Positions 1 through 47,816 of a stretch of DNA of 53,938 bases are shown here, one piece after another. The notes under the pieces were generated by a model that searched no databases, had not been told where the DNA came from, and saw nothing but the letters and a program-made list of their open reading frames with translations. The position numbers were made by a program, and so were the translations under genes. The first letter of the stretch is position 1. Every line of letters starts with the position of its first letter. Source of the stretch: Clostridiales bacterium (GTDB taxonomy: Bacteria; Bacillota; Clostridia; Peptostreptococcales; Anaerovoracaceae); assembly GCA_012513435.1 (NCBI GenBank), contig JAAZCE010000038.1, positions 1-53,938 on the forward strand, read 5' to 3'.

Positions 1-2899
1 ATGCTTGGTTTACATACTTATGCGTGTAAAGAGCACCTGAATATATGGTCCTGCGACCTTCAGCTACACTGAATCTCGCCGGATCAGCTGCTCCGCTTTT
101 CTTGTTGAGCTTGGTCGTATCAAATGTCAAAAGAACAACGTCCTTCTTGTCGGTGCTGTTGTTTAGCTTCGTGGCGTTTATAGCTTTATCGTTAACTCCA
201 AAATCCGTAACCGCCCATGAGGACATAGCGTTATTATCTATATATGTTCTTATAGAACCCCCTGAAACAAAAAGTTCGCCGCCTACTGAATCATTACCTC
301 CGTCATATCCACCGCCGCCAATAGCTGCACCGCTAAAATCGACATTAACAGATACTGTACCTCCATTGACATATACCTTTCCACCTTCTGTCGCACCACT
401 GCTGCCTGCAGCGCCTCCTATTGAAGCACCTCTTGCGTTACCAATAATATTGATATTTCCATCGTTAATAGTTATGTCTCCTGGCTTGCTTGCATTTGCA
501 CCTGTCCCTATAACAGCGCCCTGCTTGGACCCCTTAATAAAATAATTCCCGCTTTCAAAGGTTATTTTACCGTTATTCTCTGAGCTGTTTCCACCTATAC
601 CAGCCCCGCCTGTTTCCTTGAAGAGATACAGTGTTCCAGTTCCCAACAAATTCAAGCTTGCAGCTTCAGAAACATGTATCACTGCCTTGGTTCCGCCACC
701 GCCGGCTCCGCCTTCTATGATGTTGGTGCCGCTGAGCATCAAATTGTTTCCTGCTGCATTAAAATCAATAGTGTTTGTATCTGTTCCCGACTTGATGTAC
801 AAATCTCTAATCATAAGATTTGCTGAAACGCCTGACTTGTATGTTATCATTAAACCAGAAATAGTATTTGAAGAATCATTGCCTGTTCCCTTACCAACAA
901 GCGTAACCATCTCGCTTGTTTCTATTGTAATGGTTCCTCCCTCTGTAACAGAGTAAACGCCACCTGTGGTTATTGTACTGTTTTCAGGAACAGAATCGTT
1001 ACCCGACTGCCAAAGCAGTACGGGATATCCATTATTAATAGCTGCTCCGACGCTTTTATCCATGACGTATTCACTACCAAGTTTATTAATCATAGATAAG
1101 TCTTTGAAATCCGTCGCACTTGTTACCTGTCCTATGGTTAAAGGCTTTGTCGACGCAGTTGTATCTCCCGCATTAAGCCCCTCAAGTGAATAATTGTTCC
1201 ATGTTCCGGAGTATCCACTATCAACATGCCCTATAATAGGATTCCAATTCCAGCTGTACCCTGGAACCACAGTTCCAATTGAATAACAGTTTTCTACATG
1301 GGTTGCACTGTCGGCAAAGCCTGCAATACCTCCCTGCCATCTTCCACCATTATTACTTGTAGCCCCAGTATTATAACAGTTGGTTATATGATTCTGATAA
1401 GTTGAGGACTTGTTTCCACCGTATCCTACAATTCCTCCAATTCCGTCCTTACCACCACCATTGCCTGTGATATTTCCGTTATTAACACATTTATCAATTG
1501 TACCAAAGTTTCTGCCGACAACTCCTCCAGAAGCTTTTGTTGCTGTAACATCTGCCGTATTCTGGCACTCTGAAACCGTTCCTTTAGCTCCATTTTGACC
1601 TACTATTCCACCTACTGCGTAAATACTTGATGTATTCACAAATATGGATACAGAGCCTTTTACATTCTTTACTTTACCATCATTCCACCCGGCTACTCCG
1701 CCCAGATTGTCGCTTCCGTTTTTAATGAATGTGCCGGAAGAACCAATGCTTCCGCTAATGTTGAAATTCTTTACAACTCCGTTCTCGCCAATTTTGCCGA
1801 AGAAGCCTTTGAACCCACCTGTTGCTGAATTAATATTGATGCCTGTTATTGAATGCTTCTGTCCATCAAATGTCCCCTCAAAGGGTTTACTGTCGGTGCC
1901 CGCTGCAACCCAAGGCGCTACGAGAGCAATATCATTCTCCAGCTTTACATTTTTTCCTGCAAAGCTGTCTTGGCTAATACCTGTTGCCGTTCCATTAACT
2001 ATTTCAGCAAATCCTCTTAGCTGACTTTCTTTTGAAATCATAAAGCTATCGTCATTAGTATTATACCAACTTGTATCGGCTGGCGAAAGGATTGCAAATT
2101 TCTTAATAACAGTACCATAAAACTGACCTGCTCCCGTTACCGTTACCGTTCCTTCTCCTACTTTATCATTACTCGTTATATCCAAGGTATAGTCATACTC
2201 TACCTTAAGCGCGCTGTTATTATGCTTTACAGTCACTACAGGGTTAATTGCCTCTCCTTGATATTCATACGAATCTTTATCTAAAGTTACGTCTCCCTCG
2301 ACGAGCTCAAAAGCCGGATTGTTAATTGTAATTCCCGATGTAAACACATCTGTTCTGAAATAAGGTGCATTCTTTTCACTCTTAGTACTATCCATACCAA
2401 GTGCAAAAGTTCCGTCGTCCGTTATTATGTTCTGGACCTCTACTCCTGCCGCATCGGCATCATATGTGGTCGGCGTACCCGCTTGACTGTATAGATATCT
2501 GGTCTTCGTAAGGTCTGCATAACTAATAGTACTGCTGCTACCGCCAATTTTCACAACAAAATTTCCCGACATATCATCAAGGATTCCCAATGTTGATAAA
2601 ATGCTACTGAACTTCACCCCACTATATGGTCCTATATTGGAAGGGTTGTTCGTCGATTTATTACTGTACTGACTGTAATATTGATCAGTCACTCTTGCAG
2701 TACTGTCAGCGAGCAATGTATTCCATTGGCCCTCCGTCAGCTTGTATTCAGTACCAGCATATGTAATCACAAGCTTCGTATCACCTGTATCTGCACTCGC
2801 GATTCCCGTAAAGCTTGGTGTCAGCGTAACTACCATAACTAAAGCCAGCAGCCACGTTAACAGCTTGTTCTTGATTGTGTTTCTTTTAGTCGTTTGCAC
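1..2899 (-). CDS. Large secreted GLUG-repeat surface protein, C-terminus beyond the window
   Basis: The reading frame stays open from a GTG at 2899 to the window edge (966 codons visible). A GGAGA ribosome site lies 9 nt before the GTG. Residues 1-38 form a signal peptide (KNKLLTWLLALVMVVTL, then ASA). Residues about 40-180 resemble the single sulfite-oxidase-fold domain of its neighbours (YSGVKFSSILSTLGI, then ISYADL). Residues about 350-500 carry GLUG-type repeats (GGFKGFFGKIGENG, LGGVAGWNDG, GGIVGQNG, GGVVGRNFG, GGIVGYGG). The rest, about 560-960, is Gly/Asn/Ser-rich beta-helix-like sequence (GGAGIGG, GASIGGAAG, GAAIGGGGYDGG). The likely role is a wall-exposed adhesin or binding protein. 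It is the last visible gene of the ExbB-containing minus-strand group. No anchor motif is visible because the end is cut off. Confidence 0.8.
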   Translation of the reverse strand, partial: MQTTKRNTIKNKLLTWLLALVMVVTLTPSFTGIASADTGDTKLVITYAGTEYKLTEGQWNTLLADSTARVTDQYYSQYSNKSTNNPSNIGPYSGVKFSSILSTLGILDDMSGNFVVKIGGSSSTISYADLTKTRYLYSQAGTPTTYDADAAGVEVQNIITDDGTFALGMDSTKSEKNAPYFRTDVFTSGITINNPAFELVEGDVTLDKDSYEYQGEAINPVVTVKHNNSALKVEYDYTLDITSNDKVGEGTVTVTGAGQFYGTVIKKFAILSPADTSWYNTNDDSFMISKESQLRGFAEIVNGTATGISQDSFAGKNVKLENDIALVAPWVAAGTDSKPFEGTFDGQKHSITGININSATGGFKGFFGKIGENGVVKNFNISGSIGSSGTFIKNGSDNLGGVAGWNDGKVKNVKGSVSIFVNTSSIYAVGGIVGQNGAKGTVSECQNTADVTATKASGGVVGRNFGTIDKCVNNGNITGNGGGKDGIGGIVGYGGNKSSTYQNHITNCYNTGATSNNGGRWQGGIAGFADSATHVENCYSIGTVVPGYSWNWNPIIGHVDSGYSGTWNNYSLEGLNAGDTTASTKPLTIGQVTSATDFKDLSMINKLGSEYVMDKSVGAAINNGYPVLLWQSGNDSVPENSTITTGGVYSVTEGGTITIETSEMVTLVGKGTGNDSSNTISGLMITYKSGVSANLMIRDLYIKSGTDTNTIDFNAAGNNLMLSGTNIIEGGAGGGGTKAVIHVSEAASLNLLGTGTLYLFKETGGAGIGGNSSENNGKITFESGNYFIKGSKQGAVIGTGANASKPGDITINDGNINIIGNARGASIGGAAGSSGATEGGKVYVNGGTVSVNVDFSGAAIGGGGYDGGNDSVGGELFVSGGSIRTYIDNNAMSSWAVTDFGVNDKAINATKLNNSTDKKDVVLLTFDTTKLNKKSGAADPARFSVAEGRRTIYSGALYTHKYVNQA

Positions 2900-2954
2900 G
2901 AAAAACACTCTCCTTTCTCTCCTTCTAAATAATTAATAATTGATGTAAAATTTA

Positions 2955-3449
2955 TTATTTCACTTCTATCTTAACCACACCTTTTACCCAGTTATCCGCA
3001 GTAACTCCAGGTATTACAAGCCTTACCGGCTGCTCGTCTTTTTTTAAGGGATTCTCGCCGTTGCATAAAGACAAATACAAATCAGGGTGAACTACGAAAA
3101 AGTCCGAATTCAACTCCTTTACATATCCATCTTTTGCAGTGAATTTTACCGATTCAAAATCACTTATGGTACTCCCGCAACCCTTTAAAAGGTCTTCCAG
3201 ACTTGGGCCAACTGCTGTAACCGTCACTTCGCCGCCGGATGATTTTGTGGTGATTTTTTTCTTTTTACAATTAAACTTAGAAAGGTCTGAAACAGTCATC
3301 GTCACAGATCCCTTATTTACACCCAATACTTGTATTTTGCTGTTGGCATACTTTGATATATCAGCTGTAACCTTGTACCCACATCCGCTCAACACCATAG
3401 TCAGACACCCCAACAGCACAACTGCCACAGCACGCTTGCTTCTTCCCAT
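2955..3449 (-). CDS. Small lipoprotein with a sulfite-oxidase-like domain
   Basis: This 164-residue protein begins with a lipoprotein signal (VVLLGCLTMVLSGC, lipobox LSGC, lipidated Cys near residue 23). The mature part matches the short 'oxidoreductase molybdopterin-binding' fold (PF00174-like): SLEDLLKGCG, then VKFTAKDGYVKEL, then PVRLVIPG, and the terminal NWVKGVVKIEV that is very typical of the family. The cysteine that binds molybdenum in sulfite oxidases is not at the expected place, about 10 residues before SLEDLL; that stretch reads ITTKSSGGEV. It is therefore more likely a binding protein than an enzyme. It starts 8 nt after the DUF2149 gene, so it is probably translated from the same mRNA as the ExbB-like channel. 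The ligand is unknown. Confidence 0.75.
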   Translation of the reverse strand: MGRSKRAVAVVLLGCLTMVLSGCGYKVTADISKYANSKIQVLGVNKGSVTMTVSDLSKFNCKKKKITTKSSGGEVTVTAVGPSLEDLLKGCGSTISDFESVKFTAKDGYVKELNSDFFVVHPDLYLSLCNGENPLKKDEQPVRLVIPGVTADNWVKGVVKIEVK

Positions 3450-3457
3450 AGTTCTAC

Positions 3458-3763
3458 CTACTCCTCAACTTTAATATAAAATCTTCCCGTTTCAGGGTCC
3501 TGATATACCGTTCCCTTCTCCTGAAGAGCCTGATCTGCTTCGACCTCATTTATCTCCTCTTCGGCAAGATCCTGTGCATCTATTTCATCCAAATCGACGA
3601 ACTTAGTTAAATCAACGTTCCAGTTCATTATAAGTGCTAACATAATGCCGACTGCCAGTACGAGCATTGCATCAGCCATGTTACTGGTCCCCTCCATAGG
3701 ATTGACGTCTTCTTCATATCTTCCCTGCCTTGTAAGCCTTCCGCCTTTATTTCTTCTTATCAT
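3458..3763 (-). CDS. DUF2149 protein, probable ExbD/MotB-like stator partner of the ExbB-like channel
   Basis: I chose the ATG at 3763 (101 residues) because a GGAGGAGG ribosome site sits about 8 nt upstream; an ATG 24 nt further up (3787) has no such site. The protein has the DUF2149 signature NPMEGTSNMADAMLVLAVGIMLALIMNW: a basic N-terminus, one membrane helix (about residues 26-47) and a short acidic outer domain. The helix begins D-x-MLVL, the same pattern as ExbD and close to MotB, where the Asp carries protons. I infer that it forms a proton-driven unit with the adjacent MotA/TolQ/ExbB protein. Its start overlaps the stop of that gene by 17 nt, which suggests coupled translation. DUF2149 has no established function. 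Confidence 0.75.
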   Translation of the reverse strand: MIRRNKGGRLTRQGRYEEDVNPMEGTSNMADAMLVLAVGIMLALIMNWNVDLTKFVDLDEIDAQDLAEEEINEVEADQALQEKGTVYQDPETGRFYIKVEE

Positions 3764-4379
3764 TGGCAGCTTCCTCCTCCAAAACACATTCAGTCAGCAT
3801 CTCCAGTACCGACATATAATTCCTATACCATGTCTTCCTGATTGTGCTTATTATCAGGGCGACAAAAGCGCAGATAAGCCCTGCAACTGTAGTATCAAAG
3901 GCAATAAGCAAGGAATTGGAAAGTGTAAATGTGTCGCCCTGTCCCAGGGCAATTATTCCGGGACCCAAAGGTATCAAGGTTCCCATAAGACCCAACATAG
4001 GCCCTATTTTCGCTATAAGGTCCGTAACCTTGACTCTTCTGTCATATATAGCCTGCTCCCTCTCTATAAGCCTTACTGCAAGGCTCTCTCTCTCTGAATC
4101 TGTTATATCCTTATGGTCTATCAGCTCATATATAACAGCCTTCTGTCTCTTTAAAAGATTGCTTTCTTCTATACATTCCCTTATTTTTTTTGGTTTATCG
4201 TGAATGGTTTCCACCATTTTAGGCAAGGTTTTCCCGTTTACCTTTAAGTACATTCTCTCTATAAATACTTCTGCTATCAATGTTCCAAAGAGCAATATGG
4301 TAACTGCTATTAGCAGCAGCAGTAAAAGAATTACCGGACTTTGCAAGCTTCCTATTATGGATCTAAGTATTGATGTCAT
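3747..4379 (-). CDS. MotA/TolQ/ExbB-family proton channel protein
   Basis: This 210-residue membrane protein has a first helix at about 14-37 (SPVILLLLLLIAVTILLFGT), a charged cytoplasmic stretch rich in Lys and Glu (about 45-110), and two C-terminal helices. The pore signature is intact: IGPMLGLMGTLIPLGPG and later FDTTVAGLICAFVALI, as in ExbB and TolQ (GLLGTV and TTAxGL). These proteins use the proton or sodium gradient to drive a partner protein outside the membrane. The start codon follows an AGGAG site and lies 2 nt after the upstream surface-protein stop. The next gene is the DUF2149 partner. An ExbB-type motor next to surface binding proteins is unusual in a Gram-positive cell, which has no outer membrane. 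Confidence 0.88.
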   Translation of the reverse strand: MTSILRSIIGSLQSPVILLLLLLIAVTILLFGTLIAEVFIERMYLKVNGKTLPKMVETIHDKPKKIRECIEESNLLKRQKAVIYELIDHKDITDSERESLAVRLIEREQAIYDRRVKVTDLIAKIGPMLGLMGTLIPLGPGIIALGQGDTFTLSNSLLIAFDTTVAGLICAFVALIISTIRKTWYRNYMSVLEMLTECVLEEEAANDKKK

Positions 4380-4381
4380 GT

Positions 4382-5989
4382 TTATATTCTCCTAAAAAAT
4401 GTATGTATCGCCCCGCCGAATCCTCCTGCAAACAATGCGGCGGCACCTAAGGCTACTGCCATTACGTTTTTATCAGGTTCTTCTTCAAGGGGCTGATTTG
4501 CTGTCATCTGTATATCGTCTGCTGCCACCCAATCAACGTCAGCCGTAAGGTTCTGGGCATTGAGCTGTTCAACGTTCGGCGTTGCGGGAGTATCGGCGGC
4601 GGCATTGCTGCTACCTGAATCTTTGGCAATACCTATATAGGTTTCCTCCGTAGCCGCAGGCGCCTGTGTTGTTGGAGCTTGGGTAGGGGGAGCTGTTGTT
4701 GGAGACGTAGTAGGCTCTGTTGTAGGGTCACTTGGATCAACCGGTTCCGTAGGCTGAGTGGGTCCCGTAGTCGGTTCAGTTGGTGGCTGTGTCGGCTCCG
4801 TCGTTGGCTCTGCAGACGTAGTAGGACTGGTAGAACCCTCACTGGAAGGCTGTGATGAGCCGCCTCCGCTTCCTGAGCCGCTTTCACTGCCGCCGCCGCT
4901 CTCGGAACCACTTCCTGAACCGGAGCCACTTCCGCTTCCGCTTCCATACCCTGACATTCCCGTTGAGGCAGAAGTGCTGATAGCGCCTCCTCCGTATTCC
5001 GTTCGAGAGTAGGTCCATTTAAGCTCAGTATCGCCCTCACCAATTATTTCCACCTCGTACTCTCCCGCTTTCTTCTTGGTTACCTTAATAACGGATTTAT
5101 CATAACTTCTAAGCCATAGGCTGGACAGTATCTGTTTTTCCAGTTCCTTTAACACGCTATCGGGTAAATAGGAATAACTATCTGGCAAGGAAACCTTTAT
5201 TTTTACCGAATACTTACTGCCCACCTTACCGTCTTCACCGCTTATAAGTTCTTTTTCGATGGTGATATTAGGCGTTCCTGTAAGCTGCAGGTTGATTACA
5301 TTTATGAATTGAACGCTTGTCCTGACATTAAATGCAGCTCCTGAGCTGCCAAGCCCCGATTGTCCGTACACAAGCCTGTATCCATCATGGCTTAAACCGG
5401 AAGTGCTGTAATTGGAGTATCCGTTTTGATATGCATCATAAGCCAAATCTCTGCTGAATTCCGTGCATCCCACTGCCAGCATCGTTGGTACTGCCTGTGC
5501 ATCTGTTGTCATGCTCTCGGTAACCTTACTGTAGTCTATGGTTCCTCCGTTGATACCAAACATATCTATCATATGTGGATAAAAATTCCTGCTTCCCATA
5601 AGGGAACTTGCCAGAAATGTTGAATACCCTTCAGTGTAGTTATCCGTGGTACCCATATGCAGGTACTTTACGGACCCAACATCTATTCCCGCATCATCAA
5701 TAAGGGTAGAAACAGGCACACCGTAGGCATAGCATATCCTCATGAAGTTTCCTGAATCCACACCGGAGTAAATATATACTCCACCGGCCATACTGTTCAT
5801 CTCACCCGCGCCATACACTTCCACATCATAATAGGGTCCGCCATAGAACCCTGCCTTTATGGTAAGACTCCCCGCTGCATGAGCATCCTCGGCAGTCAAT
5901 CCGTAAAGTCCTATGCCGTATACTGAACACATGGTTATTATAAGTGCTCTCGCTATTATTTTTTGTATTCTTTTCCTCTTATCCTTCAC
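4382..5989 (-). CDS. Cell-surface protein: sulfite-oxidase-like domain, Ser/Gly/Thr/Pro stalk and C-terminal anchor
   Basis: The protein has 535 residues and starts at GTG 5989 (AGGAT about 11 nt upstream); no ATG fits the frame. A signal peptide ends near residue 39 (AEDAHAAG). Residues about 40-240 look like a diverged sulfite-oxidase-type domain: YGVPVSTLIDDAGID, MLAVGCTEFS, GYRLVYGQSGLG, then SVQFINVINLQLTG. A second beta-rich domain spans about 240-335. A Ser-Gly run (about 345-375) and a Pro-Thr-Thr-Glu stalk (about 380-440) follow. A hydrophobic helix plus FFRRI (about 508-535) should anchor it in the membrane. It is the first gene before exbB-like and DUF2149, so it may be the surface arm driven by that motor. 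No LPxTG motif is present. Confidence 0.78.
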   Translation of the reverse strand: MKDKRKRIQKIIARALIITMCSVYGIGLYGLTAEDAHAAGSLTIKAGFYGGPYYDVEVYGAGEMNSMAGGVYIYSGVDSGNFMRICYAYGVPVSTLIDDAGIDVGSVKYLHMGTTDNYTEGYSTFLASSLMGSRNFYPHMIDMFGINGGTIDYSKVTESMTTDAQAVPTMLAVGCTEFSRDLAYDAYQNGYSNYSTSGLSHDGYRLVYGQSGLGSSGAAFNVRTSVQFINVINLQLTGTPNITIEKELISGEDGKVGSKYSVKIKVSLPDSYSYLPDSVLKELEKQILSSLWLRSYDKSVIKVTKKKAGEYEVEIIGEGDTELKWTYSRTEYGGGAISTSASTGMSGYGSGSGSGSGSGSGSESGGGSESGSGSGGGSSQPSSEGSTSPTTSAEPTTEPTQPPTEPTTGPTQPTEPVDPSDPTTEPTTSPTTAPPTQAPTTQAPAATEETYIGIAKDSGSSNAAADTPATPNVEQLNAQNLTADVDWVAADDIQMTANQPLEEEPDKNVMAVALGAAALFAGGFGGAIHTFFRRI

Positions 5990-6060
5990 TTGTTATCATC
6001 CTAACTGATCGAAAATAGCTCTAATTACAAGAAGTTTATCATTTTGGCAATGGAGATTCT

Positions 6061-6095
6061 ATTGTTTAGACAACGTTACTTGTTGTTTAAACAAC
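6061..6095. promoter_or_regulatory. Tandem palindromic operators upstream of the surface-protein/ExbB operon
   Basis: Two related 14-bp palindromes lie here: GTTGTTTAAACAAC (6082-6095, perfect) and ATTGTTTAGACAAC (6061-6074). Their centres are 21 bp apart, so they lie on the same DNA face two turns apart. Nearly the same palindrome occurs before modA (26237-26250), and a 12/14 match occurs at 10444-10457. The regulator is not known; no obvious candidate gene is in the window. Confidence 0.6.
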
Positions 6096-6135
6096 ATTTT
6101 TTTTAAATATATTTACTGTATACTGCCTACTCGTC

Positions 6136-6155
6136 ATACAGTAAAAATACTGTAT
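6136..6155. promoter_or_regulatory. Perfect inverted repeat ATACAGTA-AAAA-TACTGTAT
   Basis: Eight-base arms flank an AAAA centre. A third half-site (TACTGTATA) occurs about 25 bp away near 6113-6121. There is no GC core, so this is not a terminator. It is probably a second operator upstream of the 5989 operon, distinct from the GTTGTTT sites. Confidence 0.4.
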
Positions 6156-6571
6156 ATTGATACATAGCTGCAAACAATGCTGTATCTGCTAAGGAAGATA
6201 TCTGTCAACTGGGTTAATCATAAGTTTTAGGTTTCTTTCTATCAAAAAAGACCGTTTATTTTCTAATATTTTCCTTATATCCTACTAAGTATGCTCCTCA
6301 CAATGAGTTTTCCAATACTAATGTTCTGAAATCACCGGTGCACTCGCCAATATCGGTTTTATAAGCATATCATCACAGAAAAAGTCAGTGTTTGATTCCG
6401 ATAAGCCGGTAAAATTTCTTTGAACAAGTCAAAAACCGGTTTATTTTAAAGAAGAAAACGAAAAAACTCAGTGTGCTCGGCCGTCTCAGCGTACCTAGTG
6501 TGCCCGGCCGGTTCGGTGTGACGTAATGCTCTTCGGTATCTCTTGGCTACGACTTCTTTATCTATAGAGAA

Positions 6572-6595
6572 AGACTGCGCATTTCTGCGCAGTCT
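6572..6595 (-). terminator. Probable terminator of the lipoprotein/S-component operon
   Basis: A perfect 10-bp hairpin (AGACTGCGCA / TGCGCAGTCT, loop TTTC) lies 74 bases downstream of the stop at 6669. On the minus strand it is followed by a moderately T-rich stretch. It separates the 10378-6669 operon from the ExbB operon. Confidence 0.6.
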
Positions 6596-6668
6596 CTGAT
6601 TCCTTCATGTCCTTAAATAATATTTATTTTGCCTTGCCATATTTTAGCTTACTTCATTTTAATTTCCC

Positions 6669-7181
6669 TTATTTCGTCTTGCAGTTTATCCTTGTCAGGT
6701 ACTGAATGCTCCTGTTGCCGTAGGTGTCCTCGGTGAATATCGCCCGAATTGGACCGGTGCCTCCCGTTTCATAATAACCTAACGGTGCGCCGTCCTTTTC
6801 ATAGGCTATGAGCACTTCATCAGCCTCAGAGCCCTTGGCAGCGGAAGAATATCCGTCTCCTGCCGTTAGGACGATAGTTTTGCAATCGGATATTCCTGCC
6901 TTTGAAATCAAATCGGAAAGCATTACACCCGCATATTCTCCCGATTCATCCTCCGACTTAGCTGACTGAAGCTGAGCATGTACCGTGGTAGATTTGAATC
7001 CCATCAGCTCATTAATAGAATAGGCTGCAACCTTTTCTCCGTCAAGGCAGACCTCTATAAAGGCTCCGTCGCCTACCGCATTATCCTTGTGATTCAACCA
7101 TGCTGCAATACCGACAATTAACGCAAGTATTATTCCCAATAATACTAAAAATTTAGGAGAAATTATTATTCTTCTTTCCAT
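6669..7181 (-). CDS. Membrane-anchored protein with a single sulfite-oxidase-like domain
   Basis: This 170-residue protein has an N-terminal membrane helix (about 9-28, FLVLLGIILALIVGIAAWL) and no lipobox, so it is probably tethered outside the membrane. The outer domain carries the family pattern: YSINELMGF, EYAGVMLSDLISKAGI, IVLTAGDGYSSA, VLIAYEKDGAPL, GPIRAIFTEDTYGNRSIQYLTRI. The position of the molybdenum-binding Cys (before YAGVMLSDL) reads LQSAKSEDESG and has no cysteine. A GGGGAAGGG ribosome site precedes the ATG, and the start overlaps the S-component stop by 16 nt. It probably works with that transporter as an external binding or presentation domain. Confidence 0.75.
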   Translation of the reverse strand: MERRIIISPKFLVLLGIILALIVGIAAWLNHKDNAVGDGAFIEVCLDGEKVAAYSINELMGFKSTTVHAQLQSAKSEDESGEYAGVMLSDLISKAGISDCKTIVLTAGDGYSSAAKGSEADEVLIAYEKDGAPLGYYETGGTGPIRAIFTEDTYGNRSIQYLTRINCKTK

Positions 7182-7762
7182 TCGCCCTTCCCCATTTTAA
7201 ATCTTTCACTTATTCCACTCTTATTAAATGCCTTCAGCAACTGCCAGCCTACTATCCCTCCTATCATTCCCGACAGGGCCGCAATAGACAGCATCAGCAC
7301 CAAATATATTCCTGGTGCCTGGAAAAAGACTACGTTAACGCAGGCTGTTCCTGCCATGTTAGCCGCTATCCCGCCTATGGCACAGCAGCCCGCACAGCAA
7401 CACCGATGGCCCGTTATGAGCATTACAAGCTCAACGGCAACTCCCGGTGCAAGATAGGTCATAAGGCTCATGATGCCGTGAGAACCTATAATCCCCGTAA
7501 AGAGAACCAGCAGTGCCTGAATAAGACTTATTATAACAGCCGTCCCCGGTTTCCTTGTAAGACCGTATCCAACAATGAGCCACATCATGTAAAGGCCTCC
7601 GGCCAGGGCTCCGCTTGGTATCATAAGTGGACCACATATAATGTGCGCCAGAGGGACCACTATAGGCTTTATAGCTACACCTATAGCAGCCATGACCGCC
7701 ATGACTATAAGCTCGTACAATGTATATTTGCTAAAAACGTTTTTTCTTTCTCTAGTCTCCAT
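7166..7762 (-). CDS. ECF-type transporter S component (YkoE/ThiW-like membrane protein)
   Basis: I place the start at ATG 7762 (198 residues, METRERKNVF). It overlaps the preceding gene's stop as TAATG, so translation is probably coupled; a longer form from 7807 would lack a ribosome site. The protein has five or six membrane helices. The central RKPGTAVIISLIQALLVL and GIMSLMTYLAPGVAVELV match the pattern of COG4721-type S components (PGxALLxxLxxALxE...GxxxEL). S components bind a small ligand and use shared EcfA/A'/T modules, which are not in this window. A cluster of five cysteines (HRCCCAGCC, about residues 120-127) is odd for the family and could bind metal or a thiol ligand. Lipoprotein genes flank it on both sides. 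Confidence 0.7.
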   Translation of the reverse strand: METRERKNVFSKYTLYELIVMAVMAAIGVAIKPIVVPLAHIICGPLMIPSGALAGGLYMMWLIVGYGLTRKPGTAVIISLIQALLVLFTGIIGSHGIMSLMTYLAPGVAVELVMLITGHRCCCAGCCAIGGIAANMAGTACVNVVFFQAPGIYLVLMLSIAALSGMIGGIVGWQLLKAFNKSGISERFKMGKGEWKEE

Positions 7763-8358
7763 TAATCTTCGTAGCTGATTTCTATATACTGGATATATGA
7801 AGCCCATCCCTGAGAATTAAAGTCCTGTTCTTCGTTTGTATATGTGTCATAGTCAGCCTGTCCGAATACTATCTTAAACGGTGCAGGATACTCACTGTCT
7901 GCATCAGGCTCTACAACAGCAATCATAGGAATAACTTCTGTTCTCTCATCGCTTTCGTTGTTGGCATAGGCATACAGTCCGTAGAGGTCGTCTACCTTGT
8001 ATTCTACAGTATATTTGTCGCTGCAGGTAATCTTTAAAATGGCATTCTTAGTGTCAAAGCCTGCATCCTTCAAGACGGTCTTGAGATCCACTCCCGTATA
8101 CTCGAAGAACTGTCTAGCGTTTTCAACCTTCTTGTTTCTTCCGCTGTATGTCAGAGTTGTCTCTCCCAGAGCCTTAAGCTCATCCGCAGTGTAAACCGCA
8201 TCCTTCTGGCCTTCTCCGGCAATAGTAAGGTCTGTTGCCTGTTCGTCAACTGTGTACCCTTTGGTCTGGTCATCTGCCTTGCTGTCATCTGAACTCCCAC
8301 ATGCCGCCAGGGAAAATGCCATAACCATACATAACAGTAATACCCATAATTTCTTCAT
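7762..8358 (-). CDS. Lipoprotein with a sulfite-oxidase-like domain
   Basis: The protein has 198 residues with a clear lipoprotein signal (FSLAACGSS, lipidated Cys near residue 20). The domain pattern runs YTADELKALGETTLTYSG, then FFEYTGVDLKTVLKDAGF, then ILKITCSDKYTVEYKVDDL, then IPMIAVVEPD, FKIVFGQADYD and WASYIQYIEISYED. This is the short PF00174-like fold. The usual metal-ligand Cys before the YTGVDL motif is missing (LTYSGRNKKVEN). An AGGAGAG ribosome site lies 8 nt upstream. The gene follows the four-domain lipoprotein by 4 nt and is coupled to the S component, so it is probably that transporter's extracellular receptor, by context. Confidence 0.78.
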   Translation of the reverse strand: MKKLWVLLLCMVMAFSLAACGSSDDSKADDQTKGYTVDEQATDLTIAGEGQKDAVYTADELKALGETTLTYSGRNKKVENARQFFEYTGVDLKTVLKDAGFDTKNAILKITCSDKYTVEYKVDDLYGLYAYANNESDERTEVIPMIAVVEPDADSEYPAPFKIVFGQADYDTYTNEEQDFNSQGWASYIQYIEISYED

Positions 8359-8362
8359 AACT

Positions 8363-10378
8363 TTACTCTCCTATCTTTATTTGCACTACATTTTTAACCC
8401 ATTTTGAGATTTGGTTTTCCACAACCAGCCTCATGGGACCGAATCCGTTTTCACCGGTAAAGCCTGCTGCTTTCTTATTCTTCACAAGAGGTTCACCATC
8501 TAAGCTATACGCTATTATTACATCGCGATGCTCTCCCTGCTGATACTGACTGTCGATACCATTCCACACGTCATCTACTGCAAGCTCCGTTTCATAGCCG
8601 TCCTCGCCTATTACGGTTATCTTAGTCGGTTTATCTATTTCAGACTTGAGATTATCCTGTATTATTTTTTTCAAAGCAACGCCCTGATACCCGTCTATTC
8701 CTGCTGATGAACCGAAGGTGTCTTTGACGGTGTACTCCGAATTTTCCAGTTCCTTAAGGGTGTACTTGGCGGAATTCACTTCCGAACCGGAGAGCTTCAA
8801 GGTTGACTTTAAATATCTCTTATAAGGCTTCTCTCTGTGGGTCCATTGACCTTCCTTAGCTTCAACATGAATATCAGTAACGCTGTTAACATCCTCACAC
8901 TTTACAGGACCTCCTTCATCTATGGCATTTCCGTCCTGTCGCGTAACTAGCAGGAGCTTATCCTTGTTTTTATGAAGCTGGTCCATCGTGTATTTGACGG
9001 TCGTGTCTCCCTCTATAGTGATCTTTTCCGCATCTATAGCCAGGCCTCTTGCTTCAAGAAATCCCGCCAGAGATATTCCCCTTTGGCTTCCCGATGTGAC
9101 CATCAGGTCATTGTAGCTTTCCAGCTCGCTTACGGTTATGTCCCCCGACTTCTTCACTCCGTCACCGTCTATTGTTATCAGGCTGCTGCCGTAGGGGTTC
9201 TCCGAAAGAGCCGCATCACCCTTCAAATTTATCTCAATAGCACTTACCGGTTTAGCCGTAGAGGTCTTCACATATCCCTTAACGGCAGGCAAGAGTGCAT
9301 ACACTCCCCTCTGAGAAGCTTCTCCGTTGACCGCATATCCTAAGGCAGGCTTGATATTTGTTATGGTCAGACCTTCCTTTGCAACGGTGTACTTGCTGAA
9401 ATCGCCCTTAACATTCCTGAAATACTCCATATCTATTACTTGGCTGCTGCCATCATTGTAGAGGAATTTTACCGTACCCTCTCTCGATGCAAAGTCCAAG
9501 TTTGAAGCTACGAACTGCCACAAATTCGCCCCCTTGTACCAGTTCTTTTTACCGTAATAGTTTTCTTCCGTGCCATTGAAGGCCGCCAGCTCCCCGCATG
9601 TAAAGCTTCCCTGATCCACCGTATTGCCTTCTTCATCCTTTGCCGTTATGGTCAAGGCTGTTTTATCGTCATAGGAAAGGTCTACCTCATCTCCGACTAT
9701 TATCTTCCTCACCCACTTGGCATTGTCAGGTGCGTTGAATTCATCGCTCGATTTTTGCCCCGCAATGAGCCTTACGGGACCGCCTACATTCTCTTCATTC
9801 TGAGAATAGCCTTCCTCCTCCGTTATCTCATCTCCCGGCACCTTGCTCCCCACGGGGCCTGTAAGAGGCAGTCCGTCACTGCCAAAAGCCACAATAACAG
9901 GAACATTTTCCCCTGCCGGCTCCTTATCCTCCATGCTGCTATATGTATTATCCATGCTTTCCTTTATTTCATCTAAAGAAAGTATCGAGGCATATCCGTC
10001 GGCGGAAATAATCCTTACCTTCGTATCTTTATCTGCTTTCACATCAAGCCCTGCGTACAAAAGCAGTTCATAAAGTTTAAGGCCGGTCATCTTGTGCTGA
10101 GAAAATATAGAACCTCTCGTAAGCATGCTGTATGTGCCTTCGTAGGCAAGGCTTTCATCAGAGGTAAGTTCTTCCAGCTCTTTAACAGAAAAAACCTTCT
10201 CTGAGTGCAGTTCATCTCCCGTTATGGTAACAGTGCTGAAAACATAGTCTCCGCTGCCGTAGTTTTCATCCTCGCCGTAGTTGATATGCAAGGCACTCTT
10301 GTTCACATTGCCGCAGGCTCCAAGCAAAACAGCAATGCACATAATTCCAAGTACAATGATAAATTTCTTTTTCTTCAT
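8363..10378 (-). CDS. Large lipoprotein with about four tandem sulfite-oxidase-like domains
   Basis: Start chosen at ATG 10378 (671 residues) because AGGAG sits 7 nt upstream and the signal MKKKKFIIVLGIMCIAVLLGAC follows at once; an in-frame ATG at 10426 lacks both. Repeats are visible: domain 1 (about 45-230: MTGLKLYELLLYAGLDV, ISADGYASILSLDEI, GPVRLIAGQ, NAKWVRKIIVG), domain 2 (about 235-385: YKGANLWQFVASNLDF, VKFLYNDGSSQV), domain 3 (about 390-515: GISLAGFLEARGL) and domain 4 (about 525-671: YQGVALKKIIQDNL, VIGEDGYETELAVDDV, GPMRLVVENQ, KWVKNVVQIKI). None has the Mo-ligand cysteine in place. It opens the operon, with TATAAT on the minus strand at 10405-10400. Probably a multivalent surface binding protein; the ligand is unknown. 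Confidence 0.75.
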   Translation of the reverse strand: MKKKKFIIVLGIMCIAVLLGACGNVNKSALHINYGEDENYGSGDYVFSTVTITGDELHSEKVFSVKELEELTSDESLAYEGTYSMLTRGSIFSQHKMTGLKLYELLLYAGLDVKADKDTKVRIISADGYASILSLDEIKESMDNTYSSMEDKEPAGENVPVIVAFGSDGLPLTGPVGSKVPGDEITEEEGYSQNEENVGGPVRLIAGQKSSDEFNAPDNAKWVRKIIVGDEVDLSYDDKTALTITAKDEEGNTVDQGSFTCGELAAFNGTEENYYGKKNWYKGANLWQFVASNLDFASREGTVKFLYNDGSSQVIDMEYFRNVKGDFSKYTVAKEGLTITNIKPALGYAVNGEASQRGVYALLPAVKGYVKTSTAKPVSAIEINLKGDAALSENPYGSSLITIDGDGVKKSGDITVSELESYNDLMVTSGSQRGISLAGFLEARGLAIDAEKITIEGDTTVKYTMDQLHKNKDKLLLVTRQDGNAIDEGGPVKCEDVNSVTDIHVEAKEGQWTHREKPYKRYLKSTLKLSGSEVNSAKYTLKELENSEYTVKDTFGSSAGIDGYQGVALKKIIQDNLKSEIDKPTKITVIGEDGYETELAVDDVWNGIDSQYQQGEHRDVIIAYSLDGEPLVKNKKAAGFTGENGFGPMRLVVENQISKWVKNVVQIKIGE

Positions 10379-10443
10379 AGCAACTCCTTCTGTCTGCCTA
10401 TTATACCTATGGCAGTAGTGTATCATGAATTATTATTAGAAAT

Positions 10444-10457
10444 GTTGTTGAACCAAC
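10444..10457. promoter_or_regulatory. GTTGTTT-family operator between divergent lipoprotein and THEP1 genes
   Basis: GTTGTTGAACCAAC, within the symmetrical ATGTTG-N6-CAACAT, matches 12 of 14 bases of the palindromes at 6082-6095 and 26237-26250. It lies between the minus-strand start at 10378 and the plus-strand start at 10485, about 40-55 bases upstream of the minus-strand TATAAT at 10405-10400. It could serve both directions. Confidence 0.5.
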
Positions 10458-10484
10458 ATACAAATGGAAAATTCATAGTAGAAT

Positions 10485-11090
10485 ATGTACATGAAAAGAC
10501 ATTTATTTCTTGAGGGACCTGTTCAGTCAGGCAAATCTACAATATTGCGTCAGCTCCTTGAGCCGCACATAGATTATACCGGAGGATTCGCAAGCCAAAG
10601 GCTGTTGGATTCTTACAGTCAGACCAGGGGCTTTCGCATAGGAGCCGCCGGCTGTACAGCCCTTACCTCCCCTTTTTCCAAAGGATATGACGGTGTTTTC
10701 AGAATCAGCAATGATGACGGCACCGTTGACAAGTACCCTGAGGTCTTTGAAAATAAGGGCGTAGAGTATCTTATAAAAAATCAAGGGAAGAAGGTAATTC
10801 TTCTGGATGAGATAGGAGGTGCAGAGCTTTTGGGCAGCCGCTTCAGACAAGCGCTGTACGAGGTTCTCGGTGGCTCCACTCCTTGTATCGGTGTAATCAA
10901 GCTTATAGAGAGCGCAGACTTCATGGTAACCACTTCCGACTATCCCCGGAGTATAATTGAATATAACCGGGAGCTTAGGAGAAAGATAACCGAAGAATAC
11001 GGTGGGAAAATAGTGAGATTCACCAAAGACGATGACGCCGTAATAAAGGAAATAGAGGATTTTTTATGTGGAATCTTTACGATAAAATAA
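10485..11090 (+). CDS. THEP1-family nucleoside-triphosphatase / P-loop NTPase
   Basis: This 201-residue cytoplasmic protein has a Walker A loop near the start (LEGPVQSGKST, about 9-19) and a Walker B (KVILLDEIGGAEL, about 103-115). The pattern FLEGPVQSGKST...GGFASQRLLD...GFRI matches the archaeal/bacterial NTPase_1 (THEP1) family, whose members hydrolyse NTPs and whose true role is mostly unknown. The start is ATG 10485 or the in-frame ATG at 10491; neither has a good ribosome site. Its end overlaps the DUF364 gene by 25 nt, so the two form an operon. Divergence from the surface lipoprotein gene across a shared operator suggests it acts in the same system, perhaps powering cofactor or metal handling. 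Confidence 0.75.
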   Translation: MYMKRHLFLEGPVQSGKSTILRQLLEPHIDYTGGFASQRLLDSYSQTRGFRIGAAGCTALTSPFSKGYDGVFRISNDDGTVDKYPEVFENKGVEYLIKNQGKKVILLDEIGGAELLGSRFRQALYEVLGGSTPCIGVIKLIESADFMVTTSDYPRSIIEYNRELRRKITEEYGGKIVRFTKDDDAVIKEIEDFLCGIFTIK

Positions 11091-11782
11091 TTAATGCCAT
11101 ACCAAATAACTTTTTTATAGATTTTGTAAATGTTGGGGAAACTTGGACCGTCGTTTCAGCGGGTGCTTATTGCGGTGTTGCTGTCACCGTCAATGAACAA
11201 AATCAGCCTCTAACTAACTTTGACTATTTATGTGGTCGGTCTTTGCAGGAAACTGCTACCCTTTGCAAATCATGGGATTTTCAGGAAGCATCCGTTGGAA
11301 CAGCCGCAGTAAACGCATATTTGAATTCAAAAGAGCATTTACAGACAATCAAACACATGAGTACTGACAATGCTTTTGATGATTACAGAGAACTGTCGGC
11401 GGGAAAGAAGGTAGCTGTAATAGGTCATTTCACACAGCTGGAAAGATTTCTCACCGATTCCGAAGTTTATGTTCTCGAAAGAAATCCGCAAGAAGGCGAT
11501 TATCCGGATTCTGCCTGCGAATACATTCTCCCGGAAATGGACTATGTCTTCATTACAGGCTCAGCCTTTATAAACAAGACCTTGCCACGGCTTCTGGCCT
11601 TGAGCAAGCATCCTATAGTGTTGGGACCCAGCACCCCTATGTCACCGGCCCTTTTGGAGTATGGCGCAAAGGAGCTGAGCGGGCTGTCTCTCGGAATCGT
11701 TACAAAAAAAGAAGCCGCAACCATAGGCCACGGCAATGTACGTCTGAAGAATTTTGGAGAACGCATCAAAATTACTGTCTGA
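11066..11782 (+). CDS. DUF4213/DUF364 'heavy-metal chelation' protein
   Basis: This 238-residue protein shows the two-part pattern of this family. The N-terminal enolase-like DUF4213 part is about 1-90 (VGETWTVVSAGAYCGVAVTV, SWDFQEASVGTAAVNAYLN). The Rossmann-like DUF364 part is about 108-225 (GKKVAVIGHFTQLERF, VYVLERNPQEGDYPDSACE, DYVFITGSAFINKTLPRLL, VLGPSTPMSPALLEYGAKEL). The family name comes from structure and gene context; Pfam suggests a link to heavy metals and anaerobic corrinoid synthesis, but no reaction has been proved. The gene is translated with the THEP1 gene (25-nt overlap; GAGG site before the ATG) and converges on mobB with a 7-nt gap. Context here points to molybdenum or another metal. 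Confidence 0.8.
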   Translation: MWNLYDKIINAIPNNFFIDFVNVGETWTVVSAGAYCGVAVTVNEQNQPLTNFDYLCGRSLQETATLCKSWDFQEASVGTAAVNAYLNSKEHLQTIKHMSTDNAFDDYRELSAGKKVAVIGHFTQLERFLTDSEVYVLERNPQEGDYPDSACEYILPEMDYVFITGSAFINKTLPRLLALSKHPIVLGPSTPMSPALLEYGAKELSGLSLGIVTKKEAATIGHGNVRLKNFGERIKITV

Positions 11783-11789
11783 CTCAAAA

Positions 11790-12536
11790 TTATTGCTTGA
11801 TTTTAATAACTATCTCGCAGTTGTCCCTATATCCGTCCAGTTCCTTGATTACAGAGGTGGATACACTTTTTACCATACTTTTTACAAAAGGAACCATAGA
11901 CAGTTCTTCCCCATCAAGAAAAACCTGGACGCTTTCACCTTTTAATATGCACCGGGATATGCTCTCGGTGCCTTTTATTATCCTCTCCGTAAGTCCGCAG
12001 CAATCGGTGCCGCAAGCGGTACAGCAGTCTGCTGAATAATTGGGCATACGCTCAGGAGTTTTTTCTTCAATGAGGCTCACCAGCTTTTCTATGTTCTCAA
12101 GAGCATTTATTACGGGCAAATCCTCGTAACTGCTGATACGATTGCTGATAACTCCTGATGCTGCAATAGTCAGCTTTCCCTTCTGCGCGGCCAGTTCCTC
12201 TTCTGTCCTTCCTGTAATTATGTCGGGACAGTTGGCTTCGCATTTACCTTCTATTACCACATAGTCCTGGTCATACATATCCAGGATTTTTTCTATATCC
12301 ACGGCGCCTTCAAACATCACATCGGTTTCCGTAAGGCCCCTTGCTGTTACGGGACATGCTCCCGCCTTCTTGTGTATGTCCGTATTGGAGCCATCTTTCT
12401 CCATAGTAAAGTCTTCAAAGTGGATTTCCTTTATGGAACCTACCGTGTAGCCTCTGCGACGAAGCTCCTTTATTATTGCTTCTACTGTAGTAGTTTTCCC
12501 TGTTTTGCTTATTCCTTGTACTTTAATGATTTTCAT
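11790..12536 (-). CDS. mobB: MobB-like molybdopterin-guanine dinucleotide biosynthesis P-loop protein
   Basis: The protein has 248 residues. Residues 1-165 follow MobB: Walker [10 protein letters not shown] (8-16), [22 protein letters not shown] around 32-53, then [19 protein letters not shown]. MobB assists MobA in adding GMP to the molybdenum cofactor, probably as a GTPase. The C-terminal part is extra: a cysteine cluster ([13 protein letters not shown], about 168-180) that could hold an Fe-S cluster or metal, then a small alpha/beta domain ([16 protein letters not shown]). The ATG overlaps the nfo stop (ATGA). No strong ribosome site is visible, so it is probably coupled to nfo. It converges on the DUF364 gene. 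Confidence 0.8.
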
Positions 12537-13369
12537 TTTTTACTATACTGCGACTGCCTGAGCAGTGCAATCTCCTTTTCGTAGCCTTCTAGGTCGTTTG
12601 GGGTTTCCAAAATACACGGGAGCCCCTGGAGTTGAGGGTGATAAACCACCCTTAATATGGCTTCAAGGCCTATTTGCCCTTCGCCTATTTTGGCATGTCT
12701 GTCTTTATGGGCCCCCAAAGTATTGAGACTGTCGTTGATATGAAGAACGTGCAGTCTGTCTATGCCGATAACATCATCGAATTCCTTAAGCACGCCGTCA
12801 AGATTCTTGACTATATCATATCCCGCATCGTTTACATGACAGGTATCAAGGCAGACACCTATCTTATCCTTGATTTCCACTCTGTCTATTATTTTCCGCA
12901 GTTCCTCAAACCTTCCGCCAATTTCACTTCCCTTGCCTGCCATTGTTTCCAGCAATATAACGGTGCTTTGCTGCGGGGTTATGATCCTGTTCAGCAGATC
13001 CGATATAAGCTCTATGCCTTTTTTCACTCCCTGGCCTACGTGACTTCCGGGGTGAAAATTATAGTAATTTCCCGGGATGTATTCCATTCTTCTCATATCG
13101 TCAGACATACATTCATAGGCGAAGGCCCTGACTCTATCCGTCTCCGAGCATGGATTGAGAGTATACGGAGCGTGAGCCACCAGCTTGCCAAAGCCGTTTC
13201 CTTCAGCCAAAGCAAGAAACCTTTCAACGTCAGAAGCATTTATTTCCTTGGCCTTTCCTCCCCTTGGGTTTCGCGTAAAGAACTGAAAGGTGTCTGCTCC
13301 TATTTTCAAGGCTTCACTTCCCATATTTTCAAAGCCCTTGACCGACGACAGATGACATCCTACATACAT
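12533..13369 (-). CDS. nfo: Deoxyribonuclease IV (AP endonuclease, Nfo family)
   Basis: This 278-residue TIM-barrel endonuclease cuts DNA 5' of abasic sites using three zinc ions. Family motifs are complete: [14 protein letters not shown] at the N-terminus, [84 protein letters not shown] and ILETPND. The His, Asp and Glu metal ligands are all in these motifs. Length is normal for the family. Its start overlaps the end of the macrodomain gene, and its end overlaps mobB, so the minus-strand genes from 14353 to 11790 form one overlapping operon. Confidence 0.95.
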
Positions 13370-13872
13370 TGTATCTTCTCCAAATATATATTGTAAAGCC
13401 TATCATTATAGCAGCACATTATTATCTCAATATCGTAATCGCTGTTGGCGTATATCCACTCCTTGACCGCCATCAATGCTATCTCCGTAGCTTCCTGAGG
13501 AGGGTATCCGTATACTCCAGTGGAAATCGCCGAAAATGCAATGCTGTGCAAGTCGTTTCTCCTTGCCAGGTCCAGTGAATTCCTGTAACAGTTTGCCAGC
13601 TTTACGCCGTCCTCAGACTTGCCTGAATATACAGGACCTACCGTGTGGATAACGTGCTTTGCCTTGAGGTCGTACCCTCCCGTTATCTTAGCCTGTCCCG
13701 TTTCACATTCATTAAGGCCCCGGCACTCCTTTACAAGTCCTGGCCCTGCCGCCCGATGTATAGCGCCATCAACTCCGCCGCCGCCCAGAAGTGTCTTGTT
13801 GGCTGCATTTACTATGCATTCGCAGTCCAGAGACGTTATATCTGCCTTGATTACTCTTATTCTATTGTCCAT
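13360..13872 (-). CDS. Macrodomain protein, probable O-acetyl-ADP-ribose deacetylase (YmdB-like)
   Basis: I start this gene at ATG 13872 (170 residues) because AAGGAG lies 8 nt upstream; a longer version would begin inside the upstream gene. The sequence has the macrodomain signature [39 protein letters not shown] and, later, [17 protein letters not shown], which bind ADP-ribose. YmdB-type members remove acetyl groups from O-acetyl-ADP-ribose or reverse mono-ADP-ribosylation. It overlaps the upstream butyrate-kinase fragment by 11 nt and the downstream nfo by 10 nt, so all three are cotranscribed. It is a near-complete single domain. Confidence 0.9.
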
Positions 13873-14353
13873 AGGTATACTCCTTGGTTTTCTCCTGTCC
13901 GGTAAGCAATCTGTATGCTCCGCCTGCCAACGCATCCAGCTCGCTTCCCATAGTTGAATCATATATATAGGCCGGTATTCCCAGAGGTTTGCCTATGGAA
14001 TATGCCAAAACAGCTCCGAGGCTTGATGCATGCTGTGGAATCTGACTGCTGGTCATGCGGCAGCAAAGAGCCTCATTGACGCGGTATCCCCCTGATTCAA
14101 GTTCAGGTGCCATACCTCCTCTGCCCACTACTGCAGATAAATTTGACATGTCATAGTCTGCATCCTTAAGCTGACCCAGTATCATCTTCTTCCTGTAATT
14201 CTCCTGCTCCCCTAGGGAACCGAAGCTGTTTATAATTTCATCATCGTGGACTATGGCGTAATTTATGACAGTTCTGCTGTTGTGGTCTGTATATACTGCT
14301 ATCTTAGTCGATGTAGAGCCAGGATTTATTACTAAAATGTCTCTGATATCCAT
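13862..14353 (-). CDS. Truncated butyrate kinase (N-terminal half only)
   Basis: At 163 residues this is less than half of butyrate kinase (about 355). The N-terminal ASKHA lobe is well kept: ILVINPGSTSTKIAVY (phosphate 1 loop), VVGRGGMAPELESGGYRVNEAL, QHASSLGAVLAYSIGKPLGIPAYIYD. The frame then ends in a short unrelated tail ([15 protein letters not shown]), so the C-terminal lobe, with the second phosphate and adenosine motifs, is missing. It cannot be a normal kinase. AAAGGA lies 8 nt before the ATG and the stop overlaps the macrodomain gene, so it still looks translated. Either it is a relic kept for translational coupling, or a single-lobe protein with a new job. No C-terminal half appears nearby. 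Confidence 0.75.
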   Translation of the reverse strand: MDIRDILVINPGSTSTKIAVYTDHNSRTVINYAIVHDDEIINSFGSLGEQENYRKKMILGQLKDADYDMSNLSAVVGRGGMAPELESGGYRVNEALCCRMTSSQIPQHASSLGAVLAYSIGKPLGIPAYIYDSTMGSELDALAGGAYRLLTGQEKTKEYTYGQ

Positions 14354-26330: not shown

Positions 26331-27113
26331 ATGAAGAAAATACTAACTATCGTAACCGTTTTGATTTTAGCAATGTCAATGCTGATAATGACAAGCTGTG
26401 GCGATAAAAAAGAAGCAGCAAAACCAGAAGTTACAGTTTTAGCAGCAGCCAGTCTGACAGATGCTCTCGATGAGATTATCGTGGAATTTGAAAAGGATTC
26501 CAGCTGCACTATCACTCCAAGCTACGCAGGCTCGGGTGACCTGGTACAGCAGATTGAGGGCGGAGCTCCTTGCGACATCTTCATCTCAGCATCCAAGGCT
26601 AACATGGACCAACTTGAAGAGGGTGGATATATCAATGCAGACACAAGGCAGGATTTATTGGCTAACTCCCTTACTTTGATAGCAGCTATCGAAAAGAAAG
26701 ATGTAGTTACCATGGATACACTTACATCAGCTGACGTTGGAACTATCGCACTTGGAGAGCCTGAAACAGTCCCTGCCGGCAAATACGCTACTCAGGTGCT
26801 TGATAATCTGGGAATAACAAGTCAGCTCACAGATAAGATTGTTTATGCCAAGGATGTTCGTGCGGTACTTAATTATGTTGAAACCGGCGATGCTGACTGC
26901 GGATTCGTATACAAGACAGATGCACTCCTTCTTGATGATACAAAGGGTGTTACTATCACTGACGTTGATTCAAGCTTACACGATGCAATCGTATATCCTG
27001 CTGCGGTAATGGCAGAAGCACCTCAGGCAGATGGCGCTGCTGAATTCTTTGAATTCATTCAGAGCGACTTTGCTAAAAAAGCATTTAAAAAATACGGATT
27101 CACTGTAAAATAG
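26331..27113 (+). CDS. modA: Molybdate ABC transporter substrate-binding lipoprotein ModA
   Basis: The protein has 260 residues with a lipoprotein signal (SMLIMTSCGDK, Cys near 23). ModA motifs follow: VTVLAAASLTDALDEIIVEFE, SYAGSGDLVQQIEGGAPCDIFISASKANMDQLEE, LLANSLTLIA, VPAGKYATQVLD, YVETGDADCGFVYKTDALL. The Ser and Tyr ligands of the oxyanion fit molybdate or tungstate. AGGAGGA precedes the ATG. It leads modA-modB-modC-moeA-like on the plus strand behind the GTTGTTT operator. Confidence 0.95.
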   Translation: MKKILTIVTVLILAMSMLIMTSCGDKKEAAKPEVTVLAAASLTDALDEIIVEFEKDSSCTITPSYAGSGDLVQQIEGGAPCDIFISASKANMDQLEEGGYINADTRQDLLANSLTLIAAIEKKDVVTMDTLTSADVGTIALGEPETVPAGKYATQVLDNLGITSQLTDKIVYAKDVRAVLNYVETGDADCGFVYKTDALLLDDTKGVTITDVDSSLHDAIVYPAAVMAEAPQADGAAEFFEFIQSDFAKKAFKKYGFTVK

Positions 27114-27155
27114 CAGGAACACAGCCTGTCAATAATAGTAAGGAATGTAATTACA

Positions 27156-27824: not shown

Positions 27825-27825
27825 T

Positions 27826-47815: not shown

Positions 47816-47816
47816 G

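Follow-up and report, generated by a model that had tools for sequence, protein, structure and literature searches.

A conserved ExbB/DUF2149 module with sulfite-oxidase-like surface proteins in Clostridia and its likely link to the molybdenum/tungsten cofactor

We analyzed a stretch of 53,938 bases from a Clostridiales bacterium, here called the window, which is one whole contig (C46) of a genome of 2.28 Mb in 109 contigs (G000). On its minus strand, from 10426 down to 1, lies one module encoding lipoproteins, the S component of an energy-coupling factor (ECF) transporter, an ExbB/TolQ-like channel, a DUF2149 protein and a GLUG-repeat protein. The surface proteins carry domains resembling sulfite oxidase (SUOX, PF00174) and PruR. 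An earlier note, made from the bare sequence, had described this gene set on one strand, and our searches confirmed it. The module is listed below, with lipoproteins and membrane anchors assigned by eye.

8363..10426, minus strand: lipoprotein with three SUOX/PruR-like domains (PF00174, 2.4e-10, for one stretch; three domains by profile)
7762..8358, minus strand: lipoprotein with a single SUOX/PruR-like domain (domain searches)
7166..7807, minus strand: ECF transporter S component, YkoE-like (PF09819)
6669..7181, minus strand: membrane-anchored SUOX-like protein (domain and fold searches)
5990..6668: intergenic gap of 679 bp, in which an RNA family search found nothing
4382..5989, minus strand: secreted protein with a SUOX-like domain, an Ig-like domain, a disordered linker and a C-terminal membrane helix
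3747..4379, minus strand: ExbB/TolQ/MotA-like channel (PF01618)
3458..3787, minus strand: DUF2149 protein, ExbD/TolR-like (PF09919)
2955..3449, minus strand: lipoprotein with a single SUOX/PruR-like domain (domain searches)
1..2899, minus strand: large secreted GLUG-repeat protein, truncated by the contig end

The ExbB protein matches PF01618 at 42.9 bits against a curated cut-off of 22.9, and a profile search with it reached 5sv0 (ExbB) at E=0.0024, ranked behind two chance-looking protein A rows. The DUF2149 protein (PF09919, 32.7 bits against 27.1) has one hydrophobic helix by hydropathy; Asp39 at the start of this helix (numbered in the open reading frame of the window) and Pro30 are both invariant in 27 of 27 aligned rows. 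ExbD and TolR require such a membrane-helix Asp. The pair resembles the TonB-ExbB-ExbD and Tol-Pal motors in its ExbB-like channel and its one-helix partner with an invariant Asp, but here there is no outer membrane, and the putative transducer combines a C-terminal helix with a SUOX-like ectodomain. We infer this candidate force transducer in the secreted protein at 4382-5989. Homology, gene order and the invariant Asp suggest that ExbB and DUF2149 may drive a surface apparatus.

When the genomes of 84,980 species were scanned with an ExbB alignment, 34 loci came up; 28 are of Firmicute type and six are gammaproteobacterial. Among the 28, one is titled Actinomycetota and two (L034 and L035) come from one strain; L038-L043 were not counted. 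For five loci further parts of the contig were included in the counts, and some of the genes therefore lie 10-30 kb from exbB. The co-occurrence that the earlier note had proposed as a check was found: SUOX-like genes occur in 21 of the 28 loci and DUF2149 in 25, and the remaining three (L016, L028 and L035) stop at a contig end shortly past exbB. DUF2149 is otherwise rare, with matches in 5 of 391 genomes of a class sample, three of them above cut-off. The immediate upstream neighbour of exbB is a SUOX-like gene in 20 of the 28 loci (in L017 an overlapping, unlisted one), and 14 of these 20 proteins have a strongly hydrophobic C-terminal stretch. The proteins encoded upstream of exbB in L033 and L035 have the hydrophobic tail and no SUOX-like domain. 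CobN partners ExbB in all six gammaproteobacterial loci, where no SUOX-like genes were found. Because the partners are SUOX-like in Firmicute-type loci and CobN in gammaproteobacterial ones, the ExbB/DUF2149 pair has the look of an unchanging motor whose partners, all handling cofactors, can be swapped. As side observations, ExbB is followed by two DUF2149 genes in Clostridium ljungdahlii (L034 4955-6275), with no SUOX-like gene within that 15.6-kb stretch, and L005/L009 hold a weak DUF2149 match within a 631-residue frame.

The SUOX-like domains of the window are predicted to have the fold of the Moco (molybdenum cofactor) domain of sulfite oxidase. A profile search yielded 96 such proteins, some genes being included twice where loci overlap; its frame set omits L001-L004 (short, mainly duplicates) and L044-L073 (short riboswitch loci). 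After removal of copies, 100 domains from 74 proteins, taken from both profiles, were aligned. The Cys loop of SoxC falls on a gap in 100 of 100 domains (one aligner, with loop placement uncertain), while in 40 of 100 at least one Cys precedes the conserved Gly. Within these limits the domains share the fold of sulfite oxidase and differ from that family in the absence of the catalytic Cys loop from the alignment, as PruR does, which has a SUOX fold without the Mo-ligating Cys. An Asp is present in 94 of 100 domains, with Tyr or Phe two residues on in 68 of those 94. PruR contacts its pterin through Trp160 and Tyr104; the Asp-x-Tyr/Phe pattern may correspond to PruR 102-x-104. PruR has one domain and works with DcpA in the periplasm, whereas the putative pterin-binding proteins of the module also include surface proteins with several domains, linked to both an importer and a motor. 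The GLUG-repeat protein at 1-2899 has a SUOX-like N-terminus by eye, but the SUOX profile did not recover it.

Importer genes accompany the module, in agreement with the ligand capture for an S component that the earlier note had envisaged. EcfT occurs in seven of the 28 loci, an S component in six, FecCD in six, PBP2 in eight and a purple-acid-phosphatase-like protein in ten; 12 loci have EcfT or FecCD on the same stretch or contig as exbB. A group I ECF system, with S, A, A' and T in one genome, is present in G000, the S component in the window and the rest on contig C13 (L114 7851-10949), which encodes EcfA, EcfA' and a 590-residue fusion of EcfT with a metallophosphoesterase (CbiQ and Metallophos above cut-off, the purple acid phosphatase N-domain below, 26.9 against 30). 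These parts may form one working transporter. In the nearest relative, L010, an EcfT-phosphatase fusion, EcfA and EcfA' stand immediately after the module, and a relative of the GLUG-repeat protein lies there between a lipoprotein and EcfA. In L012, L021, L023 and L024 the ECF parts are no more than about 9 kb away from exbB. Other loci have a separate purple-acid-phosphatase-like protein with a secretion signal by eye; the gene is absent from all six gammaproteobacterial loci. Among solved structures, a sequence search with the S component found one relative only, YkoE (5edl, E=0.0015), the group I hydroxymethylpyrimidine/thiamine transporter component, which shares the PF09819 family and the separation of EcfA, EcfA' and EcfT from ribosomal-type loci. 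It differs in that the S component here is fused to or near SUOX-like domains, that G000 and L010 have an EcfT-phosphatase fusion, and that relatives of the module carry a riboswitch for Moco or the tungsten cofactor (Tuco). Beside the G000 cassette lies a GGDEF/PAS protein (L114 11019-12080); PruR elsewhere partners a GGDEF-type enzyme.

A direct tie between the SUOX-like domain and the importer was observed in Pelotomaculum (L074, contig of L026), where the genes behind a riboswitch encode, in order, two TupA-like proteins (NF041772, E=2e-51 and 1e-73, each under the model cut-off), an S-SUOX fusion and an ECF ATPase. The fusion, of 353 residues, joins an S component (PF09819, 2e-21) to a SUOX-like domain and so holds both in a single chain. 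The same fusion occurs in L078 with an ATPase and EcfT. The fused SUOX-like domains score 19.8 and 17.1 bits with PF00174, below the cut-off of 24, and 1e-14 and 4e-13 with the SUOX profile. ECF systems for phosphorylated vitamins need dephosphorylation beforehand, and molybdopterin carries phosphate. Since the system has a phosphatase, an organic cofactor is favoured over a bare oxyanion.

Riboswitches of relatives favour a molybdenum, tungsten or pterin cargo. An Rfam scan of the 28 loci (L033 by way of L006, which contains it) gave five matches at gathering score, all of the Moco/Tuco family RF01055, in L021, L023 and L027, and no cobalamin riboswitch at that score. In whole-genome searches RF01055 was found in 12 of the 28 module genomes, 11 of them above gathering score, with 48 matches, compared with 53 of 391 class-sample genomes (Fisher p=3e-4, or 1e-3 with 11; both values ignore shared ancestry). 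Eleven of the 48 lie within 20 kb of exbB against 0.68 expected, two of which (L077 1816 and 1966) precede the gene of an unlabelled 560-residue secreted protein instead of a SUOX-like gene. From a reading of the neighbourhoods, 13 of the 48 precede SUOX-like, ECF or FecCD genes; the targets of the rest are mod-type, moa, formate-dehydrogenase-like or AOR genes, or cannot be clearly told. In L109 the S component begins at +136, with A, A' and T; in L027 the riboswitch is followed by SUOX-like, SUOX-like, ExbB, DUF2149 and SUOX-like genes; in L096 by a SUOX-like lipoprotein, FecCD and an ATPase. L097 has it ahead of three SUOX-like proteins, two of which were put to Pfam, one matching PF00174 at 22.9 bits, below the cut-off of 24. 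The SUOX-like gene is second after the riboswitch in L094 and the S-SUOX fusion third in L074 (15292), while the FecCD genes of L098 and L074 (5396) begin 1.4 and 1.6 kb past it. The third hairpin of the RF01055 model, taken as P3, is missing in 10 of 10 alignments shown, and forms lacking P3 have been linked to the tungsten cofactor in the portions consulted of Regulski et al. (PMC2408646). As a separate observation, L074 7072-11922 has a Moco riboswitch heading FecCD, an ATPase, an HmdB-like radical SAM protein, PBP2 and then a TrmO/FmdE protein.

The hosts of the module use Mo/W (molybdenum or tungsten) enzymes, as judged from their sequences. PF02738 is present in 22 of the 28 module genomes and 78 of 391 class genomes (p=3e-10), PF02730 (AOR) in 13 of the 28, and one or the other in 26. 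Nineteen of the 78 PF02738-bearing class genomes have no MoaC match, which may mean that genes are missing, that the cofactor comes from elsewhere or that the enzymes are of another kind.

What we observed, as the basis for our interpretation, is the gene content, its conserved neighbourhood, the predicted fold, the position of riboswitches in relatives and the ECF parts of G000; the cargo, the phosphatase step, the motor action and every other functional step are drawn from it by inference. A role related to the Mo/W cofactor is likely. It is moderately probable that the module is a surface system that acquires Moco/Tuco, a pterin precursor or a Mo/W chelate, with a phosphatase, an ECF or ABC importer and an ExbB/DUF2149 motor. 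Outside the cell, lipoproteins, S-layer-type proteins and a protein anchored by its C-terminus would capture the ligand with their Cys-less SUOX/PruR-type domains. Phosphate would be removed by a purple-acid-phosphatase-like enzyme that is either secreted or part of an EcfT fusion, and a YkoE-type S component, served by its own EcfA, EcfA' and EcfT, would take the ligand across the membrane; in relatives a BtuCDF/FecCD-type ABC importer (FecCD plus PBP2) may do so instead. ExbB and DUF2149 could form a proton-driven motor that works by way of the membrane helix at the C-terminus of the anchored SUOX-like protein, so that ligand is pulled, loaded or released. In relatives, the module genes stand behind Moco/Tuco riboswitches. 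Import of the intact cofactor is somewhat less likely than not. The same holds for the proposal that anaerobic Gram-positives obtain Moco/Tuco, or molybdopterin, in intact form from other organisms by a proton-driven surface machine, whose pterin-fold proteins would strip or capture the cofactor before the phosphatase trims it and the ECF transporter imports it.

Several results weigh against this interpretation. No RF01055 match was found in G000 by whole-genome search, in the window at gathering score, or in window 1-13500 at E<=5 (one chance DicF row only), nor in 16 of the 28 module genomes, and the statistics given here take no account of shared ancestry. In 16 of the 28 loci the available stretch lacks both EcfT and FecCD, in some because the contigs are short. 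PF02730 was not found in G000, though PF02738 matches twice, so that an AOR-kind tungsten enzyme is not evident there. PF07550, a domain whose name refers to the interaction of Shr with haemoglobin, is found repeatedly in the surface proteins of the module, and in one Clostridia locus (L037) ExbB/DUF2149 is paired with a CobN-like protein. The pocket of PruR is likely unable to hold Moco, according to the excerpted text of PMC13259868. Finally, MoaC is missing in nine of the 28 module genomes, yet its absence among PF02738 carriers (6 of 22 against 19 of 78 in the class sample, p=0.78) is not enriched. The expectation that importer genomes lack Moco synthesis thus failed, and the system would supplement, not replace, cofactor synthesis. 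The absence of MoaE (21 of 28 module genomes) was discarded as a sign of auxotrophy, MoaE being absent in C. ljungdahlii (G414) as well.

The earlier note had left the cargo between molybdenum, tungsten, a metallophore, a pterin cofactor and a corrinoid. The riboswitches of relatives, the PruR-like fold and the TupA-like neighbours favour the Mo/W/pterin end of this list, while corrin or heme as cargo lost ground with the absence of CobN from G000. Within the favoured end, the cargo might be the metal itself, as oxyanion or metallophore chelate, with the SUOX-like domains binding a pterin-like or other W/Mo chelator. FecCD-type importers transport chelates, the S-SUOX fusion and TupA-like proteins are encoded in one operon under a riboswitch, and DUF364 adjoins the window locus, a family with a W/Mo/V genome context and a proposed maker of a chelating flavin or pterin derivative in the sections used of PMC2954201. 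We regard metal cargo as rather unlikely: ordinary modABC-type genes are also present in the window and several module genomes, the S family is vitamin-type, and a PruR-type fold with a phosphatase suits an organic phosphorylated ligand. It is improbable, too, that nothing is imported, the SUOX-like proteins being Moco/Tuco-dependent surface proteins or PruR-like pterin sensors whose expression a riboswitch ties to cofactor supply, and ExbB/DUF2149 powering a surface scaffold or signal. Such a reading would fit Moco riboswitches upstream of genes for Moco-using proteins (PMC2408646, in part), the signalling role given to PruR in the literature excerpts, and the GGDEF protein adjoining ecfA in G000; the gap at the Cys loop, the S-SUOX fusion and the importer genes of 12 loci speak against it.

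Heme was our first hypothesis, after the hmu operon, the CobN of L037 and the HID domains; it was set back by the lack of CobN in G000 and by the Moco riboswitches, and was kept as an alternative. In the extracts seen of PMC10434189, the Porphyromonas gingivalis heme operon hmuYRSTUV ends with an ExbB gene and a DUF2149 gene, taken as HmuU and HmuV because of the list order. The HmuSTUV system of Porphyromonas and Bacteroides thus also encodes this pair alongside cofactor-handling proteins, and a Gram-positive cousin of it for heme, a corrinoid or another tetrapyrrole would accommodate the CobN next to ExbB in L037 and six of six gammaproteobacterial loci and the Shr-like HID domains. Hmu works with HmuY, a TonB-dependent receptor and CobN for heme, whereas our module has SUOX/PruR-like surface proteins, an ECF or FecCD importer and a Gram-positive host, and a PF02514 search of G000 returned no CobN. 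With CobN in just one of 28 Firmicute-type loci, a SUOX/PruR fold, and only Moco-type riboswitches at gathering score in those loci, tetrapyrrole uptake is very improbable. The CobN-like protein of L037 (9947-15637; 1563 residues, PF02514, 1117 bits) has a signal-peptide-like start and is perhaps a surface HmuS-like chelatase in a Gram-positive.

Beside the module, the window encodes two genes divergent from it.

10485..11090, plus strand: THEP1-type NTPase (domain search)
11066..11782, plus strand: DUF4213/DUF364 protein, putative heavy-metal chelation

THEP1 is near the module in four of the 28 loci (L012, L017, L022 and L029) and DUF364 in none of the 28 others, only in the window. Farther on, genes resembling mobB, modABC (26331-28485), moeA, MOSC, mog, moaC and moaA were recognized from the sequence, with moaC confirmed by PF01967. 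The large frame at 8363..10426 likely starts at ATG 10378, by eye. The window also holds a yjdF (azaaromatic) riboswitch (69 bits, 33563-33687, minus strand) immediately 5' of the frame 33129-33575 and a Group II intron D1-D4-7 match at 47738-47848 (minus strand). By eye, the minus strand further encodes an 850-residue protein at 14995-17547, EF-G/ribosomal-protection-like with a C-terminal NYN/YacP-like part, and, at 13360-14353, a short, seemingly incomplete butyrate-kinase-like frame (163 aa) adjoining a macrodomain-like one.

Among the matches listed in our searches of open-licence full texts there was neither a bacterial importer for the Mo/W cofactor nor the whole assembly, and we know of no earlier example of an ExbB/ExbD-type motor for import across a Gram-positive envelope. 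The excerpts of a regulon survey (PMC3766115) count B12, thiamin, riboflavin, queuosine and folate among the uptake classes, place Mo/W transporters under metals and contain no Moco uptake class. The parts are known; their combination and the probable cargo are probably new. Animals are able to acquire the cofactor. If the intact cofactor is imported, this would be, to our knowledge, the first bacterial importer for the Mo/W cofactor. Our interpretation, if true, would also suggest a function for DUF2149 and the Cys-less PF00174 proteins and explain why cells that lack an outer membrane have ExbB-like motors. If Clostridia of gut, rumen and digester do likewise, cofactor sharing would become testable in communities where Mo/W enzymes count.

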